Positions 20,293 to 28,749 of a DNA stretch of 64,000 bases are shown here, piece after piece. The notes beneath the pieces were generated by a model. That model searched no databases. It was not told the DNA's origin and worked only from the letters and a program-made list of their open reading frames with translations. Every line of letters begins with the position of its first letter. Position 1 is the first letter of the stretch. The stretch spans positions 386,732 through 450,731 of the forward strand of contig MPNC01000003.1 of the NCBI GenBank assembly GCA_002238825.1, in the 5' to 3' direction. Both the position numbers and the translations under genes were made by a program. The DNA is from SAR202 cluster bacterium bin87. GTDB taxonomy: Bacteria > Chloroflexota > Dehalococcoidia > Lucifugimonadales > UBA3495.

Positions 20293-21303
20293 CTACTGGC
20301 AGTGCGGAATGACTTCCTCGCCGAAGAGCTGGATGGCCTCCATGATGCGCTCGTGGGGCGGGCCGCCGGAGTGGGCATGGCGCAGCCGCAGCAGGAAGTA
20401 GTCGGCGCCCGTGGCCTCCTTCCAGCGGTGAAACTCGTCCACCACCTCCTGGGGCTCGCCCAGGATCAGGCGGTCGGGGCCCAGATTGTCGATGTTGATC
20501 TGCGATTCCTCGGTGTATTGCCGGAATTCGTTGAGGCCGTTGCGCCAGTAGTATTTGTAGGCGTCCATGACCTCCGGCCCGTACACCCGCTCCGCTTCGG
20601 CGCGGGTCGGGGCAACCCACGCATCGCGCATCAGGCACAGCACCGGTTCCTTCCCAGCATCTTCCGCCGCGCGCTGGTAGGCGTTGGCCAGGGAAATCGT
20701 GTTTTCCAGGTCGGTGCTGGGACCGGCCACGAACCCGTCGGCGATCCGGCCGGCACGCCTGGCTCCCGGTGTACGGCTCGCGCCGATCCACAGCGGCGGC
20801 GCGGGATCCGAGTAGGGCCGGGGCGTGATGGTGAGGTCGTCCAGGTTGAAGTGCTCGCCGGAGAACGAGAACCGCTCGCCGCTCCAGCACTGACGGATGA
20901 TCTCGATCTCCTCCTCGAACCGGCTGACCCGCTGCTCGATGGCGATGTCAAACGTCCGGAAGTCCACCGGCTGGTAGCCCAGGCCGACGCCCAGGATGAA
21001 CCGCCCCCGCGACACGATGTCCAGGGTGATCACGTCTTCGGCCAGCCGCACCGGATGGTGCAGGGGCAGCAGGATTACTGACGTGCCCAGGTTCAGTGTG
21101 GTGGTCTGCGCGGCAACCGCGGCCGACACGATCAGCGGCGAGGGCAGGAACCCGTCCCGGTCCTGGTGGTGCTCCCCGAAGAAGCAGGAGTCGAAACCGG
21201 AGGCCTCGGCGAGCTTCGCCTCGGCCACGACCTCATCAACCCGCAGCGCCAGATTCTCCCCGGCCGGCGGGTCTGCGATGGAACTGTAGATGCCAAATTT
21301 CAT
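20293..21303 (-). CDS. LLM-class flavin-dependent oxidoreductase
   Basis: 336 residues. ATG 21303 is used (AAAGGG six bases upstream) rather than TTG 21309. Luciferase-like features: MKFGIYSSI, the FDSCFFGEHHQD strand-helix, SRGRFILGVGLGYQPVDF and RIADGFVAGPSTD. These bind reduced FMN or F420 and oxidise small organic molecules. Its downstream neighbour is a CMD protein 33 bases away, so the two probably act in one catabolic step series. Substrate unknown. Confidence 0.87.
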   Translation of the reverse strand: MKFGIYSSIADPPAGENLALRVDEVVAEAKLAEASGFDSCFFGEHHQDRDGFLPSPLIVSAAVAAQTTTLNLGTSVILLPLHHPVRLAEDVITLDIVSRGRFILGVGLGYQPVDFRTFDIAIEQRVSRFEEEIEIIRQCWSGERFSFSGEHFNLDDLTITPRPYSDPAPPLWIGASRTPGARRAGRIADGFVAGPSTDLENTISLANAYQRAAEDAGKEPVLCLMRDAWVAPTRAEAERVYGPEVMDAYKYYWRNGLNEFRQYTEESQINIDNLGPDRLILGEPQEVVDEFHRWKEATGADYFLLRLRHAHSGGPPHERIMEAIQLFGEEVIPHCQ

Positions 21304-21336
21304 GGACAACCCTTTACCTATGCAACGTTGGTACGC

Positions 21337-21837
21337 CTAATGACCGCCCTGTCCGTTCTGGGCGATGACCTCGGTCAGGCGGTTCAAAGCTTCCAGAAAC
21401 GCCTGCCGTTCTTCGGCAGATTGGCGGCGTTCTTCGGCGGCGCGTTCCTCTGCCTGGCGGCGTTCTTCGGCGGCGCGTTCCTCCGCCTGCCGGCGTTCTT
21501 CGGCCTCCTGCCGACGCTGTTCCGCCACTTCTTCCATGAACGTTCTCATCATTTCCATCATCTGGTTGTTGCGGTACCGTTCGCGCAAGAAAAGCATGAT
21601 GTCAGAGCCTCCGACGATGGTAATGGCGATGCTGGAGTGGATGACACAGTGATGGAGGAGGGTAGTCGATATGTACCGTGCCATGAGGCCCGGCCGGCAC
21701 TTCAACTCGTCTGCACTCTCCAAAGTGCAAGGTAGTGCAGTGGAGTACCACACCAGCCAGGTAACGGCGATAGCGAGCGCCCCGGCCAGGGCGGGAGCCC
21801 ACAACGCGAGGAATACGGTTCTGGGATCTGGCAGCAT
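21337..21837 (-). CDS. Membrane protein with an 11-residue-repeat coiled coil
   Basis: 166 residues from ATG 21837, which has GGGG a few bases upstream and places a hydrophobic helix (VFLALWAPALAGALAIAVTWLVW) at the start; a frame from 21930 would overlap the next gene. The C-terminal third is a charged helix built from three tandem copies of an 11-residue unit (EERRQAEERAA), encoded by a 33-bp DNA repeat. No family recognised; a membrane-anchored coiled coil that might hold a partner at the membrane. Confidence 0.6.
   Translation of the reverse strand: MLPDPRTVFLALWAPALAGALAIAVTWLVWYSTALPCTLESADELKCRPGLMARYISTTLLHHCVIHSSIAITIVGGSDIMLFLRERYRNNQMMEMMRTFMEEVAEQRRQEAEERRQAEERAAEERRQAEERAAEERRQSAEERQAFLEALNRLTEVIAQNGQGGH
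21428..21526. repeat. 33-bp tandem repeat inside a coding region
   Basis: CGTTCTTCGGC recurs at 21428, 21461 and 21494, exactly 33 bases apart, giving about three in-frame copies that encode the EERRQAEERAA coiled-coil unit. The third copy is diverged. Confidence 0.8.
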
Positions 21838-21862
21838 TATAACCCCGCCAAACAGGACGCGG

Positions 21863-22816
21863 TTACTTGAAATGTGACAGCACCCGGCTCGAGAACATCT
21901 CCATCTGGCGGAAGTAGTCGTCAGGCTCACCGGCCAGGAACCCGAACACGAAATCGCGCACGCCCGCGTCGACCCGTTCCTGCACCGCGCCGATGCAGTC
22001 CTCGGCGTTGCCCGTGATGCACAGGGCGCGAGCGATGTCCTCGGCGCTGCGTTCGGGGGTTACGTATCGCTGTCCCACGTGGGCAACTGCGGTTTCGAGG
22101 GCTTTGTCCGGATCCTCGTCGATGGCCGTGGGCTGGTTCAGACCCCAATGGAACCGGCTCAGGTCGCGCCCGGCGTGTTCGGCCATCTCGCGCACGCTGG
22201 TGTTGGACCGCCGGAGCCGGTTCACCGTGAACAGGTACGGATACCACCCGTCGCCGGCGATCGCCGCCCGCCGCACCGCCGCGTCGCTGCGTCCCGCCAC
22301 CCAGATGGGCGGATAGGGTTGCTGGTGCGGCTTGGGCTCCAGCGTCACGTCGTCGTAGTTGAAGAACCGCCCGTGGTGGGAGACGTGGTCCTCCGTCCAC
22401 AGCTGCTTCATCGCCCGCAGTATCTCATCGGTGCGCCGGCCCCGGGTGTTGACGGGAATTTCCATCGCGTCGAACTCCGCCCGCGTGTCGCGCTGGCCGC
22501 TGATACCGATGCCGAAGTCCAGCCGCCCGCCCGAAATCTGGTCCACCGTGGCCACCAGCTTGGCCAGCATCACCGGATGGTACAGCGGCGCGATCACGAT
22601 CCCCGTCAGCACCCGCAGCCGAGTGGTTGCGCCGGCCGCCGCCGCCATGGCCGGCAATCCCATCACCGTGGGACGCGGCGGATTGCCGTCCATGACGTGC
22701 TCCCCGATGGACACCCGGTCGTACCCCAGGTCCTCGGCTCGCCGGGCGAAATCCGGCAGGTCCCAGAAATTGTCCACGCTGAGGTTGAGGCCGAAGGTGA
22801 TCGCGTTGTCTGCCAT
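21863..22816 (-). CDS. LLM-class F420-dependent oxidoreductase
   Basis: 317 residues with the luciferase-like barrel: ITFGLNLSVDNFWDLPDFA, RVLTGIVIAPLYHPVMLAK, SGGRLDFGIGISGQRDTRAEF and PPIWVAGRSDAAVRRA. GGGAGA precedes the ATG. The member is closer to the F420 branch than to bacterial luciferase. It lies between a membrane protein and a TlpA-like lipoprotein, neither with an obvious link to its chemistry. Confidence 0.87.
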   Translation of the reverse strand: MADNAITFGLNLSVDNFWDLPDFARRAEDLGYDRVSIGEHVMDGNPPRPTVMGLPAMAAAAGATTRLRVLTGIVIAPLYHPVMLAKLVATVDQISGGRLDFGIGISGQRDTRAEFDAMEIPVNTRGRRTDEILRAMKQLWTEDHVSHHGRFFNYDDVTLEPKPHQQPYPPIWVAGRSDAAVRRAAIAGDGWYPYLFTVNRLRRSNTSVREMAEHAGRDLSRFHWGLNQPTAIDEDPDKALETAVAHVGQRYVTPERSAEDIARALCITGNAEDCIGAVQERVDAGVRDFVFGFLAGEPDDYFRQMEMFSSRVLSHFK

Positions 22817-23689: not shown

Positions 23690-24850
23690 ATGCTCTCACT
23701 CCCGCAACTATCGCCCATGGCGTCGCGCAGGTTCCGGTTGCTGGCCGCGCTCGCCGTCGCCGTGGTCGCGTTGCTCGTAATCTGGAAGCTGCTGGCCGTG
23801 TTGCTGCCCTTCCTGCTCAGCGGCGTTGTGGCCTACCTGCTGTTGCCACTGGTCAACGCGGCGGAACGGCGGACGCCACTGGGACGGCGATGGCCCCGGG
23901 CCACGCGCATGGCGACCGCAGCCCTGCTCCTCCTTCTGATAGTGTTGGCCGTGCTAATCGTCCTGGCAGTGGGTGTGCTGCGGATAATCGACCAGTCGAC
24001 GGCCCTCGTGGAGCGCGCCCCTGACCTCATATCGCAAACCCAGGAGATTTACCGCGCTGCCATCGCCGAATACGAAAGCCGCGTCCCGCCCAACATTCGG
24101 GAGATGATCGATCCCCGCCTGCAGGAGGTCCAGCAGGCGCTGGTCGAAGCTCTGAATAGTGCTCTCTTTGGACTGTTCCGGATCCTGCAAACCGGCGTGG
24201 GCCTGGTGGTCTCGCTGGTCACGGTTCCCATCATCCTGTTCTACCTGCTAGCCGAGCCTGCAGGTATCGGACGCGGGGTGCGTGGTCTGCTCCCCCGCTC
24301 GTTGCGGGACGATCTGTGCGAAATTGCCCGCCTCTCGGGTGAATCCATCGGCGTCTACATGCGTGTCCAGCTGCTGCTGGGCGCCATGATCGGGGTGATC
24401 ACCGGCCTTGCCCTGTGGGGCATGGGGGTGTCCTCGGCGCCAATCCTCGCTATCGTGGCGTTCTTCGGCGAGCTCGTGCCCATTGTCGGCCCGACCATAT
24501 CGCTGGTCATCGCCGCCGTCGTCATGCTGGTCACCGACTGGACGAAGGCCCCGCTGGTCATCGCCCTGTACCTGATCCTGCAGGCGCTCCAGAACACGCT
24601 GATCGCCCCCAGGATGCAGGGCCAAGCGTTGGGTTTGCACCCGCTGGCGGTCATCCTCGCCCTGGCCATATTCGGGCTGTTCCTGGGATTCTGGGGGGTG
24701 CTGGTTGCCGCTCCATTCACCGCCGCCGGCTACCGCGTGATCAGCTACGTCGTGCGGGAATGGGACGCGGCCGCCACATCGGGAAACCCACTCGATGCGG
24801 GAGACGCCGCCGAACCGGACGGGGATACGGTGGCGGCAGAGCACGAATAG
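23690..24850 (+). CDS. AI-2E transporter family (PerM/UPF0118) membrane protein
   Basis: 386 residues. ATG 23690 has GAGG six bases upstream; longer frames read into the MITE-like element. Around eight hydrophobic segments, starting with LLAALAVAVVALLVIWKLL, a large polar region between about 110 and 190 (SQTQEIYRAAIAEYESR), and the conserved late block ILAIVAFFGELVPIVGPT with IAPRMQGQALGLHPLAVILAL. Family members export small molecules or are Na+/H+ exchangers; AI-2 itself need not be the substrate. Confidence 0.85.
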   Translation: MLSLPQLSPMASRRFRLLAALAVAVVALLVIWKLLAVLLPFLLSGVVAYLLLPLVNAAERRTPLGRRWPRATRMATAALLLLLIVLAVLIVLAVGVLRIIDQSTALVERAPDLISQTQEIYRAAIAEYESRVPPNIREMIDPRLQEVQQALVEALNSALFGLFRILQTGVGLVVSLVTVPIILFYLLAEPAGIGRGVRGLLPRSLRDDLCEIARLSGESIGVYMRVQLLLGAMIGVITGLALWGMGVSSAPILAIVAFFGELVPIVGPTISLVIAAVVMLVTDWTKAPLVIALYLILQALQNTLIAPRMQGQALGLHPLAVILALAIFGLFLGFWGVLVAAPFTAAGYRVISYVVREWDAAATSGNPLDAGDAAEPDGDTVAAEHE

Positions 24851-24923
24851 CGCCTCCGAGCGCACTGGTGTACAATCGGCCAAATTGAAGCCGTCTGTCC
24901 TGCTGCCGCGAGGGAGATTTGAG

Positions 24924-26225
24924 ATGCGTATCCTGCTGATTGCTACCAACCGTCACAAACAGGTCATGAGCCGGATGCGAGCGCAGCCCATCCCCATCGG
25001 CCTAGCCTATGTCGCCGGCCACATCGACCGTTCCCGGCACGAGGTAAAGCTGATAGACCTCATGTTCGCCGAGGATAACTACCTGGATGAAGTCGAGCGC
25101 ACCGTGCTGGACTTCAAGCCGGAGATGGTGGGTATCTCGATCCGCAACCTCAGCAACCACAGCTACGTCGACCCGCAGTGGCAGTTGCCCATCACCCGGA
25201 GCGTCATCGAACGCATCCGGACGATTTCCGACGCCACCATCGTCTGCGGCGGCCCGGCTTTCAGCATCATGCCGCAGCAGGTCTTCGACTTCGTGCAGCC
25301 CGACATCGGCATCGCCGGCGACGCGGGTGAGACCTTCTCCGAGCTGGCCAACCGCGTCGAGATCGGTGAACCCGACTACCGGGGCATGACCGGCGTTCTC
25401 TACCGTGAGAACGGCGAAATCGTGTACAACGGCATGCGCTGTTCGTCCGATTTCGGCAGTCGGCCCAGCCTTGACGACCTGGACATGCCCAAGTACGCCA
25501 AGGCCGGTTTCGGCGTCAGCGTGCTCACCAAGCTGGGCGGGTTCTACTACCCCACCTCCGCCGACGATATGCGCACCCCCGAGGGCGCCTGGCGGGTGAT
25601 CCGCCCCATCGACGAGGTGGTTGAAGAAGTGGCCGAGGTCACGACCCGCTACGGCCTGAAGAAGATCTTCTTCGTCGACAACTGCTTCAACGTGCCTTTG
25701 GAGCACGCCAAGGAACTCTGCAACGCCCTGATGGAATCCGAGGTGAAGGTGCGCTGGAACACCTGCCTGGCCCCCTACGCCTGTGACGCCGAGCTCATCG
25801 GCATGATGAAGCAGGCCGGCTGCGGCCTCGTCATGATGGGCGGTACCCGCGGCGGCGACCCGCACGAGGGCGACAACGACACGTCGCGGTACGCCTCCCT
25901 CAAGGAGACCACCGAGCTGTGCGAGGCCGGCGACCTCCACTACACCATCAGCCAGCAGTTCGGCGAGCCGGGTGAGACCCGCGAATCGGTCGAAAACAAG
26001 CTGGAGTTCCTGCGTGGCCTCAAGCCTTCGCTGGCCAACCTCCGGGTCGGCGTCAGCGTCATGCCCGGCACCGACGTGGCCACCCGCTGTCTCGAGGAAG
26101 GCATCATCAAGGACGAGACCGAGCTCATCGCCCCCACCTTCTACATGGCCGAGGAAGTCCGCCCCTGGCTGGTCGACTATCTCCGCGAGCTCGTCGACGC
26201 CAACCCGCGCTGGAGCCTGATGTAG
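24924..26225 (+). CDS. B12-binding/radical-SAM-like protein lacking the cluster cysteines
   Basis: 433 residues from ATG 24924 (GAGGGAGA upstream). The N-terminal half looks like the B12-binding-like domain of class B radical SAM enzymes (IPIGLAYVAGHIDRS, EVKLIDLMF, VCGGPAFSIMPQQ) without a DxHxxG motif. The barrel that follows is well kept (IFFVDNCFNVPLEHAKEL, VRWNTCLAPYACDAEL, MMKQAGCGLVMMG). But where CxxxCxxC should be, residues 199-215 read VLTKLGGFYYPTSADD, with no cysteine. Without a [4Fe-4S] cluster it cannot make the 5'-deoxyadenosyl radical in the usual way. It heads a run with DUF1800 and an NHL propeller. Confidence 0.75.
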   Translation: MRILLIATNRHKQVMSRMRAQPIPIGLAYVAGHIDRSRHEVKLIDLMFAEDNYLDEVERTVLDFKPEMVGISIRNLSNHSYVDPQWQLPITRSVIERIRTISDATIVCGGPAFSIMPQQVFDFVQPDIGIAGDAGETFSELANRVEIGEPDYRGMTGVLYRENGEIVYNGMRCSSDFGSRPSLDDLDMPKYAKAGFGVSVLTKLGGFYYPTSADDMRTPEGAWRVIRPIDEVVEEVAEVTTRYGLKKIFFVDNCFNVPLEHAKELCNALMESEVKVRWNTCLAPYACDAELIGMMKQAGCGLVMMGGTRGGDPHEGDNDTSRYASLKETTELCEAGDLHYTISQQFGEPGETRESVENKLEFLRGLKPSLANLRVGVSVMPGTDVATRCLEEGIIKDETELIAPTFYMAEEVRPWLVDYLRELVDANPRWSLM

Positions 26226-26275: not shown

Positions 26276-27727
26276 ATGACATTGACCGGCAACCCACCGC
26301 TGGGCGCGGCCCGCATCGCCCTGGCCGATAACGCATCCATCCGCGCCGCGCATCTCCTGCGCCGCGCCGGATTCACGCCCACCCGCGCTGAAATCGATCG
26401 CGCCGTGGAGCGCGGATACGAGGCCACCGTCGACGAGCTGCTGCATCCCGAGGCCCGGCCCGACCTCGAGATCGAGGACCTCATCCGCCGCTACCACGTC
26501 GACCAGAACAGCCTGATGCTGCTGGAGAGCAGCCAGGGCTACTGGATGTATCGCATCATCAACAGCCAGCGCCCGCTGGAGGAGAAGATGGCCCTGTTCT
26601 GGCACGGCCTCTTCGCCACCGCCTACGGCAAGCTCAACCACGCCAAGGCCGTGGTCAACCAGACCCATACCTTCCGCCGCCACGGGCTCGGCAAGTTCGC
26701 TGACATCCTGGTCGAGCTGTCCCGCGATCCCGCCATGATCTTCTGGCTGGACAACAAGGACAACCACCGCGACTCGCCCAACGAGAACTATGGCCGGGAA
26801 CTGCTCGAGCTGTTTTCCATGGGCATCGGCAACTACACCGAGGCCGACGTGAAAGCCGCCGCCCGCGCCTTCACCGGCTGGACCATCGACAACACCGAGT
26901 ACATGAGCATCCGCGCCAGCCGCGACTCCTTCTGGCCCTACGGCCGCATCGACTGGCAGTTCCGCTACCGCGAGGATGACCACGACGACACCGAGAAGAC
27001 CTTCCTCGGCCACACCGGCCCCCTGAGCGGCCACGACGTCATCGACATCATCGTGCAGCAGCCGGCCACCGCGCACTACATCGCCGGCAAGCTCTACAAC
27101 TTCTTCGTGTCCGACCGGCCCGATGAGGAAGCCATCGGCATCATGGCCGACGAGTTCATCCGCACCGACGGCGACATCCGCGCCGTCATGCGCCGCATGT
27201 TCCTGTCGGACTTCTTCGCCGACGAGGCCGTCCGGCTGGGTCGCGTCAAGAGCCCGGCTGAACTGGTGGGCGGCACGGCGCGGCTGGCCGGCAGCCACCA
27301 ATCTCCAGAATGGACCATCTCCAATCTGGCCATGGACGTCAACTTCATGGGCCAGGAGATTCTGAACCCGCCCACCGTTGAGGGCTGGCACACCGGCATG
27401 GAGTGGATCGACACCGGCAACCTGGTCGAGCGCATCAACGCCGCCGGCGCCGAGATGCGCGACACGGCCCGCCCCGGCGTCCGTGCCATCATCGAACGCG
27501 TCAAGACCCGGGGCAACCGGCTGGAGCCCCGCCCGCTGGCCGAGGCCTGCCTGGACGCCATGGGCATGTTCGAGGTGTCGGATGGCACCATGAACAGCCT
27601 GGTCGCGCTCGCCGCCCCGTGGGGCGAGGTTCGTTTCGACCGCGACGACACCGTCGCCTGCGCCGAGGAGCGCGTGGTGGAAATGCTGCAGCTCATCGTC
27701 GCGTCCCGGGAGTACCAGCTGGCATGA
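26276..27727 (+). CDS. DUF1800 family protein
   Basis: 483 residues with the full DUF1800 pattern: IRAAHLLRRAGFTPTRAEID, then MALFWHGLFATAYGK, NENYGRELLELFSMGIGNYTEADV, ARAFTGWTI and a C-terminal NPPTVEGW. The function of the family is unknown; it usually carries a Tat or Sec signal and is followed by a DUF1501 gene. Here there is no signal peptide and no DUF1501 neighbour. Instead it starts 50 bases after the radical-SAM-like gene and its stop overlaps the NHL gene (ATGA). Confidence 0.85.
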   Translation: MTLTGNPPLGAARIALADNASIRAAHLLRRAGFTPTRAEIDRAVERGYEATVDELLHPEARPDLEIEDLIRRYHVDQNSLMLLESSQGYWMYRIINSQRPLEEKMALFWHGLFATAYGKLNHAKAVVNQTHTFRRHGLGKFADILVELSRDPAMIFWLDNKDNHRDSPNENYGRELLELFSMGIGNYTEADVKAAARAFTGWTIDNTEYMSIRASRDSFWPYGRIDWQFRYREDDHDDTEKTFLGHTGPLSGHDVIDIIVQQPATAHYIAGKLYNFFVSDRPDEEAIGIMADEFIRTDGDIRAVMRRMFLSDFFADEAVRLGRVKSPAELVGGTARLAGSHQSPEWTISNLAMDVNFMGQEILNPPTVEGWHTGMEWIDTGNLVERINAAGAEMRDTARPGVRAIIERVKTRGNRLEPRPLAEACLDAMGMFEVSDGTMNSLVALAAPWGEVRFDRDDTVACAEERVVEMLQLIVASREYQLA

Positions 27728-28749
27728 CCACCACCGCGACCGCAACCTTCTCCTACAGCCACACCGTAGGCTTCCTGGCCTACCGCGGCCGGGGCTTCAT
27801 CCACCCCGTCGACCTGACGCTGGGCGACGGCGGTGTGATGTACGTGCTGAACCGCGGCGGCGCCGAGTCGGTCGGCCGGCTCGAGCTAAAGCGAGTTTGC
27901 GTCTGCACGGCGGACGAAGGCTACATCGGCGAGTGGGGAACCGGCGGCACCGAGGACGGGCAATTCTGGTGGCCCAGCGCCATCGCTCAGGACGGCGACG
28001 GTCGGCTCTACGTGTCCGACGAGTCGCTGCAGCGGGTCAATGTGTTCAGCCCAGACGGCGAGTTCATCCGCCAATGGGGAGAAACCGGCGACGGCCCCGG
28101 ACAGATCAACCGCCCCGCCGACATCGCATTCGCCCCCGACGGCACGCTTCTGGTCAGCGACGGCATGAACCACCGCATCCAGCGCTTCACCGTCGACGGC
28201 GAGTACCTGGGCGGCTGGGGCAGCTACGGCGCCCAGGCCGGCCAGTTCAACACCCCGTGGCGGCTGGCCTGCGACGCCCGGGGCAACGTCTTCGTCGCCG
28301 ACTGGCGCAACGACCGCGTGCAGGCGTTCACTCCCGAAGGCCGTTTCGTCGGCCAGTGGGGCGTGTCGGGAGATGGCAAGGGCCAACTGAACCGGCCCTC
28401 ATCGTTAGCCGTTGACGACGATGGCTACATCTACGTGGCCGACTGGGGCAACGAGCGTGTGCAGATATTCGCACCGGACGGCGAGGTGGCCGCCATCCTG
28501 CTGGGCGACGCGACTACGTCATCCTGGGCGGAGGACTACCTCGCTGCCAATCCTGACGAACAGAGGGCCCGGCGCGAAGCGGATCTGGCCCCCGCCGTCA
28601 ACCCGTGGCGCGACCACCACCGCGAGACTTCGGCCGGCGTGGAGGCCCGATTCTGGGGACCCACGGCGGTCAACCTGGACGACGAGGGCCGCATCTATAT
28701 CGTCGACTCCTGCCGGCACCGCGTCCAGATCTACCGCAAGAGCTCGTAA
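27724..28749 (+). CDS. NHL-repeat beta-propeller protein
   Basis: 341 residues. ATG 27724 overlaps the DUF1800 stop, which fixes the start; a longer frame upstream is a shadow. At least five NHL blades can be counted, each with a PxDIAxxxDGxLYVSDxxNxRVQxF pattern (near 88-115, 135-160, 182-210, 230-255) and a final RIYIVDSCRHRVQIY. Propellers of this type bind protein, RNA or act as lactonase-like scaffolds. No signal peptide, so probably cytoplasmic together with DUF1800. Confidence 0.87.
   Translation: MTTTATATFSYSHTVGFLAYRGRGFIHPVDLTLGDGGVMYVLNRGGAESVGRLELKRVCVCTADEGYIGEWGTGGTEDGQFWWPSAIAQDGDGRLYVSDESLQRVNVFSPDGEFIRQWGETGDGPGQINRPADIAFAPDGTLLVSDGMNHRIQRFTVDGEYLGGWGSYGAQAGQFNTPWRLACDARGNVFVADWRNDRVQAFTPEGRFVGQWGVSGDGKGQLNRPSSLAVDDDGYIYVADWGNERVQIFAPDGEVAAILLGDATTSSWAEDYLAANPDEQRARREADLAPAVNPWRDHHRETSAGVEARFWGPTAVNLDDEGRIYIVDSCRHRVQIYRKSS

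Follow-up and report, generated by a model that had tools for sequence, protein, structure and literature searches.

A Chloroflexota protein family of predicted cobalamin-binding radical-SAM fold that lacks the cluster cysteines

The 64-kb stretch of SAR202 cluster DNA analysed here (the window) encodes a 433-residue protein that, judged by homology and a structure model, shares the fold of cobalamin-dependent radical-SAM enzymes and carries none of the cysteines of their cluster motif. On balance we favour the reading that it is a corrinoid-binding pseudo-radical-SAM protein, which would have kept its B12 site, lost the radical chemistry and now serve as a carrier, chaperone or sensor. Since the residues predicted to face the cobalt are frozen, the shell around cluster and SAM is degenerate and a pocket in the barrel is conserved in the family's own way, we infer that a corrinoid is still bound, and with it a binding mode and a role, and predict that radicals are no longer made.

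The reading frame is uninterrupted from the ATG at position 24924 to the stop codon at 26223–26225, as the initial annotation had reported with exact coordinates (Table 1). A longer in-frame ORF starting at 24795 exists, and the homologue alignments begin at the methionine of 24924. The Pfam B12-binding model PF02310 matches with 58.6 bits (E 7e-16), above its gathering cut-off of 32.1, and together with the structural matches described below it identifies the N-terminal Rossmann B12-binding domain characteristic of class-1 enzymes. No match to Radical_SAM (PF04055) was found in the 433 residues at E ≤ 0.001, and the gene is absent from the 18 PF04055 matches of its own genome. Radical-SAM models of NCBIfam do cover the full length of the protein, with scores well below the cut-off in each case. 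The best of them is TIGR04072 (B12-binding/radical-SAM, 'lipid biosynthesis', ladderane-associated; E 1e-56, 192.6 bits against a cut-off of 360), which is also the best full-length model for the cysteine-bearing relatives L017 and L018, followed by the B12 lower-ligand biosynthesis protein BzaD (TIGR04385; E 6e-36, 124.5 bits against 450), which has the same domain order; the window protein differs from both in falling under the cut-off and in being devoid of the cluster motif. The tryptophan 2-C-methyltransferase model TIGR04428 reaches 75 bits against a cut-off of 500, and the nearest sequence in the PDB is TsrM (6wte), found with phmmer at about 20% identity. Because the host genome has 18 ordinary radical-SAM matches, among them a separate cysteine-bearing B12 radical-SAM protein, the organism has not abandoned clusters generally. 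It also encodes cobalamin enzymes, namely a MetH-type protein and two methylmalonyl-CoA mutase B12 subunits.

Table 1. Features of the cysteine-less gene and its downstream neighbours in the window.
Feature	Position	Strand	Basis
CDS, cluster-less B12-binding/radical-SAM-fold protein (predicted fold), 433 aa	24924..26225	+	Open frame, domain searches, start common to homologues
Probable ribosome-binding site AGGGAG, 5' of ATG 24924	24911..24916	+	Read from the sequence
N-terminal Rossmann B12-binding domain, residues ~1–160	24924..25403	+	Pfam PF02310 at residues 21–141; VIA-align corrinoid-protein matches at residues 1–147
Arg74 codon, aligned to TsrM Arg69 (residue under cobalt)	25143..25145	+	Ungapped alignment; Arg in all cysteine-less and 28/28 cysteine-bearing sequences; PMC8992657
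Gly109-Gly110, GG motif of the B12 domain	25248..25253	+	Invariant in cysteine-less and cysteine-bearing groups
Cysteine-free loop VLTKLGGFYYPTSADD, residues 200–215, in the place of CxxxCxxC	25521..25568	+	Alignments; pLDDT <50 at residues 208–221
Cys254 codon, position of TsrM Glu273 (unique-iron ligand)	25683..25685	+	Gly in most cysteine-less homologues, Glu in 25/28 cysteine-bearing sequences; PMC8992657
Putative degenerate SAM-site segment after strand 4, residues 308–319; D-S/E-S of active relatives lost	25845..25880	+	Column comparison; pLDDT <50, control model without such a segment
DUF1800 gene, downstream, 50-bp gap	26276..27727	+	Pfam E 5e-106; synteny
NHL-repeat propeller gene, 4-bp overlap with the DUF1800 stop	27724..28749	+	Pfam NHL E 4e-33; synteny

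Where the cluster motif is expected, residues 200–215 read VLTKLGGFYYPTSADD. A cysteine-free stretch had been claimed for residues 199–220, and in fact no cysteine occurs anywhere between C173 and C254. The phmmer alignment pairs T202–A213 with TsrM 223–234 without a gap, which indicates that the motif was replaced in place and not deleted, with G206, P210 and A213 standing for C227, C231 and C234; in the same alignment C254 takes the position of Glu273, the ligand of the unique iron in TsrM (PMC8992657). None of the 72 homologues aligned has a cysteine at residues 196–228, and CxxxCxxC is present in every cysteine-bearing relative examined. The three-cysteine [4Fe-4S] motif by which the radical-SAM superfamily is defined is thus missing from the window protein and all 72 homologues, and the residues that would make up the cluster and SAM site of a class-1 cobalamin-dependent enzyme are replaced.

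The cysteines that the family does conserve are C266 (72/72), C300 (68/72) and C333 (70/72). As C266 and C300 are also invariant in the 28 cysteine-bearing relatives, 21 of which have C333 too, these three belong to the common scaffold and are structural. Two further cysteines of the window protein, C254 and C281, are located behind strands 2 and 3, close to the former cluster site, and could be invoked for a shifted set of cysteines, or with other ligands, that holds a cluster or another metal in what would still be a radical-SAM or metalloenzyme. We regard this as very improbable, because position 254 is glycine in 49 of the homologues and cysteine in 17, position 281 is cysteine in only 35, and the SAM-site residues are lost as well. 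The search for a shifted set, which the initial annotation had named as a possible refutation, was therefore answered in the negative.

The gene is neither misread nor decaying. Thirteen further loci of the genus, found at 85–99% identity in independent assemblies by a species-genome scan that used one protein as query and extends to close relatives only, all have the cysteine-free loop, and this agreement together with that of the 72 homologues excludes a local sequence error. In comparisons with congeners dN/dS is 0.016–0.09 over the whole gene and 0–0.13 in the loop, so that the gene is under strong purifying selection. It is present in 46 of the 50 genomes of the window's GTDB family, including 18 of the 18 near-complete ones, and in five further families of the order, six in total. 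With a cysteine-free loop conserved across congeners and families and dN/dS at most 0.09, the chance that a sequencing error, a frameshift or pseudogene decay accounts for the missing motif is negligible, and the early judgement that this is not simple decay holds.

Several genomes of the GTDB family carry a second or third copy at 40–55% identity. Such cysteine-less paralogues form subclades within the same genomes (L077, L079, L080–L092; at most three copies), and in some of them the loop is shorter, for example ITKWFGNQTPS. This pattern indicates that the family diversified after the cysteines had been lost. When 104 sequences were placed in a tree, one branch (SH-aLRT 99) set the 71 cysteine-less rows apart from all CxxxCxxC relatives, and a single loss in an ancestor is the simplest reading of this topology; the tree was built quickly, has long branches and leaves the exact sister group of the clade unsettled. 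The nearest cysteine-bearing relatives, at 25–32% identity, come from different families within the class and from different classes within the phylum. Close homologues with CxxxCxxC, the other outcome that would have pointed to an error, were looked for, and no cysteine-bearing orthologue was found within the order at E ≤ 1e-30. The matches that follow in the order are B12 radical-SAM proteins of greater length and of other families; those examined, L173, L174 and, from the window's own genome, L136/L143, have the motif. A family-profile search, whose scope was Chloroflexota genomes with the phylum sampled, found no cysteine-free member elsewhere in the phylum among 400 genomes, and its four non-self matches have CxxxCxxC. 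The ancient loss, the broad retention and the failure to find a shifted cysteine set strengthen the original proposal of a pseudoenzyme, or of a protein that uses the fold for binding or for another cofactor.

Which parts of the protein have been kept was assessed column by column between 28 cysteine-bearing and 72 cysteine-less sequences (window-protein numbering). In the barrel the cysteine-less group has lost E201, R204, C206, C210, C213, Y279, G302, D308, L316, L345, G348, T359 and others, as well as the glutamate of the D-S-E-F-N motif at position 254, a set that, by alignment, includes the ligands of the cluster and residues where the SAM site is expected. The B12 domain retains N9, P24, D45, R74, N75, G109, G110, P117 and G132 in all sequences. 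Completely retained in the barrel are Y191, F255, N256, W278, G299, G347, G376 and P404. Newly invariant in the cysteine-less group are A7, T8, P22, G26, M47, S72, P111, F196, G197, D288, K359, R374 and W430, with K263 at 99%. The GEGE motif, which follows strand 5, has changed, with E135 lost. Among positions at least 90% conserved in the cysteine-bearing set, the original residue is kept in at most 10% of sequences at 15 of 52 barrel but 1 of 21 B12-domain positions (Fisher p 0.029), and in at least 90% at 14 of 21 B12-domain versus 23 of 52 barrel positions (p 0.12, not significant). Because both cut-offs were picked after the data had been seen and the results are mixed, this comparison serves as supporting evidence only, and the weight is put on the named residues.

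The B12-contact residues are putative, since they are taken from the TsrM alignment at about 20% identity. Within this distant alignment R74, invariant in the cysteine-less family, falls on TsrM Arg69 and is predicted to lie at the face of the cobalt. Many of the invariant positions may serve only to maintain the fold, and one could picture a pseudoenzyme of structural or regulatory role that has given up cobalamin as well as the cluster and uses both domains to bind proteins or small ligands. The drift of the GEGE motif and of several other conserved B12-domain positions, the non-significant result at the 90% level and the varying gene neighbours described below are compatible with it. We judge it unlikely, given that R74, N75, G109, G110 and S72 are unchanged throughout the family, paralogues included, beyond what fold maintenance would lead one to expect.

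An AlphaFold2 model built from a 26-sequence family alignment has a mean pLDDT of 85 and a pTM of 0.86, and drops below 50 only at residues 208–221 and 308–319, the loops corresponding to the cluster and SAM sites. In the cysteine-bearing control L017, modelled from a 26-sequence alignment of its own group, the mean is 89.9 with no segment below 50, the cluster loop reaches 83–84 and the stretch behind strand 4 about 94. The structure check proposed at the outset placed the fold closest to TsrM (Foldseek E 6e-25; VIA-align Z 30.2, rmsd 2.9 over 407 residues), ahead of AprD4 (Z 25.8), OxsB (24.6) and MgmA (23.6). The partial TIM barrel of the superfamily is predicted, as TsrM, AprD4, OxsB, MgmA, CysS, TokK and MiaB match at Z 18–30, and the B12 domain of the model resembles stand-alone corrinoid proteins (4jgi, Z 12.4; 1y80, Z 12.2). 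AprD4 (PDB 6fd2) has the fold in common with the window protein; it is a diol-dehydratase of the radical-SAM type whose cluster is functional.

In class-1 cobalamin-dependent radical-SAM enzymes such as OxsB, TsrM and TokK, an Asn, Arg or Trp from the loop after strand 3 lies under the cobalt and there is no histidine ligand. In TsrM this residue is Arg69, placed 3.4 A below the cobalt, which it keeps without a lower ligand, and the methyl transfer is polar and not radical (PMC8992657, PMC13331322). TsrM (PDB 6wte/6wtf; TIGR04428), a class-1 tryptophan C2-methyltransferase, resembles the window protein in its whole-length fold, in the Rossmann B12 domain that precedes the barrel, in Arg69/R74 and in the LTKxG and D-x-x-FN motifs, whereas it differs in having CxxxCxxC and Glu273 where the window protein has G206, P210, A213 and C254. 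We propose that the ancestor was a class-1 enzyme of the TsrM/AprD4/TIGR04072 type, that the [4Fe-4S] ligands and SAM-site residues were lost in an ancestor common to several families of one Chloroflexota order, and that this loss spared the Rossmann B12 domain and the pocket of the barrel. Cobalamin would then span the domain interface in a base-off, His-off state, Arg74 having the place below the cobalt that Arg69 has in TsrM, and the barrel would hold a ligand or a partner in place of cluster and SAM. No radicals would be involved in the action of the protein, and its simplest role would be that of a corrinoid carrier, chaperone or sensor. A precedent for a radical-SAM fold as tetrapyrrole carrier is given by HemW and CgdH2, heme chaperones of the superfamily with a role in tetrapyrrole trafficking (PMC10320005); these belong to another subfamily, keep the cluster motif and bind heme, and are compared here at the level of the superfamily. 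No described cysteine-less radical-SAM family was found in a search of the open-licence literature.

The polar chemistry of TsrM also makes an active, non-radical cobalamin enzyme conceivable, either a methyltransferase or another catalyst of the cob(I)alamin type, in which Arg74 would stabilise four-coordinate cobalt, the substrate would sit in the barrel and the methyl group would not come from cluster-bound SAM. It could draw on TsrM being the nearest solved structure, on the invariance of R74, and on the barrel residues, where K203, F255, N256, W278, G347, G350, G376 and Y407 are conserved and K263, D288, K359, R374 and W430 are newly invariant or nearly so, a pattern that suggests a specific pocket. 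TsrM, however, keeps its cluster motif and binds SAM, while both sites are degenerate here and no methyl donor is evident, and we consider such an enzyme possible if doubtful. Its extension to the whole family, as cobalamin enzymes derived from radical-SAM enzymes that have discarded cluster and SAM and use the former barrel for polar cobalamin chemistry that does not depend on SAM, is equally tentative. If true, evolution would here have detached the B12 half of dual-cofactor enzymes from the radical one, perhaps as an adaptation to oxygen-rich habitats.

The link that had been drawn to DUF1800 and an NHL propeller stands for the genus, where both genes adjoin the cysteine-less gene in all 13 relatives examined, and for three other genera, in which a phosphofructokinase-like gene lies between (four genera in total); it fails for most genera of the GTDB family, which have other neighbours. 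The two genes therefore cannot define the function of the protein, which is independent of them, and a general function derived from them was rejected. Within the genus, about 0.5–0.6 kb separates the cysteine-less gene from DUF1800 in some congeners (L005:9303–9887, L006:9303–9879, L012:1297–1870), compared with 50 bp in the window, and this insert apparently holds two small membrane-protein frames. In the congener at L009:10717–12605 the NHL gene comes in two parts, a short initial match and, about 0.7 kb away, the remainder; a 147-bp piece of it is 81% identical to part of L154 from the window's own genome. Upstream in the window, a block made up of a coiled-coil gene and two frames of the luciferase-like monooxygenase type (20293–22816, minus strand) is conserved in most congeners.

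In four or five other genera the cysteine-less gene is followed on its 3' side by a lipid-transfer thiolase and then a DUF35-like zinc-ribbon protein, closely so at L107:7685–10716, L104, L110 and L101, where the thiolase is of the lipid-transfer-protein type; such a pair is familiar from acyl-CoA or steroid side-chain breakdown. Elsewhere the adjoining genes encode CaiB CoA-transferases (in pairs), a cytochrome P450, and amidohydrolase-like and alpha/beta-hydrolase-like proteins. The thiolase, CaiB and P450 were assigned by NCBIfam matches and the other neighbours by reading their sequences. These catabolic neighbours would suit a non-radical B12 enzyme, to which the lack of a fixed operon partner supplying a substrate is opposed: no universal conserved partner was found among the genera compared. 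Neither was a B12 gene seen as a conserved neighbour in the neighbourhoods compared, nor a cobalamin riboswitch or other Rfam match within the 64-kb window.

In bulk, radical-SAM proteins are identified through CxxxCxxC and its cluster, and to call the present genes radical-SAM enzymes on the strength of overall homology would be a wrong annotation. The two-domain B12/radical-SAM scaffold can evidently outlive its cluster, stay strongly selected, be duplicated and rise to core-gene status in a Chloroflexota family. The cysteine-less family offers a test bed for the B12 domain without the radical half, and may include a new corrinoid carrier, a sensor or a cluster-free B12 enzyme.
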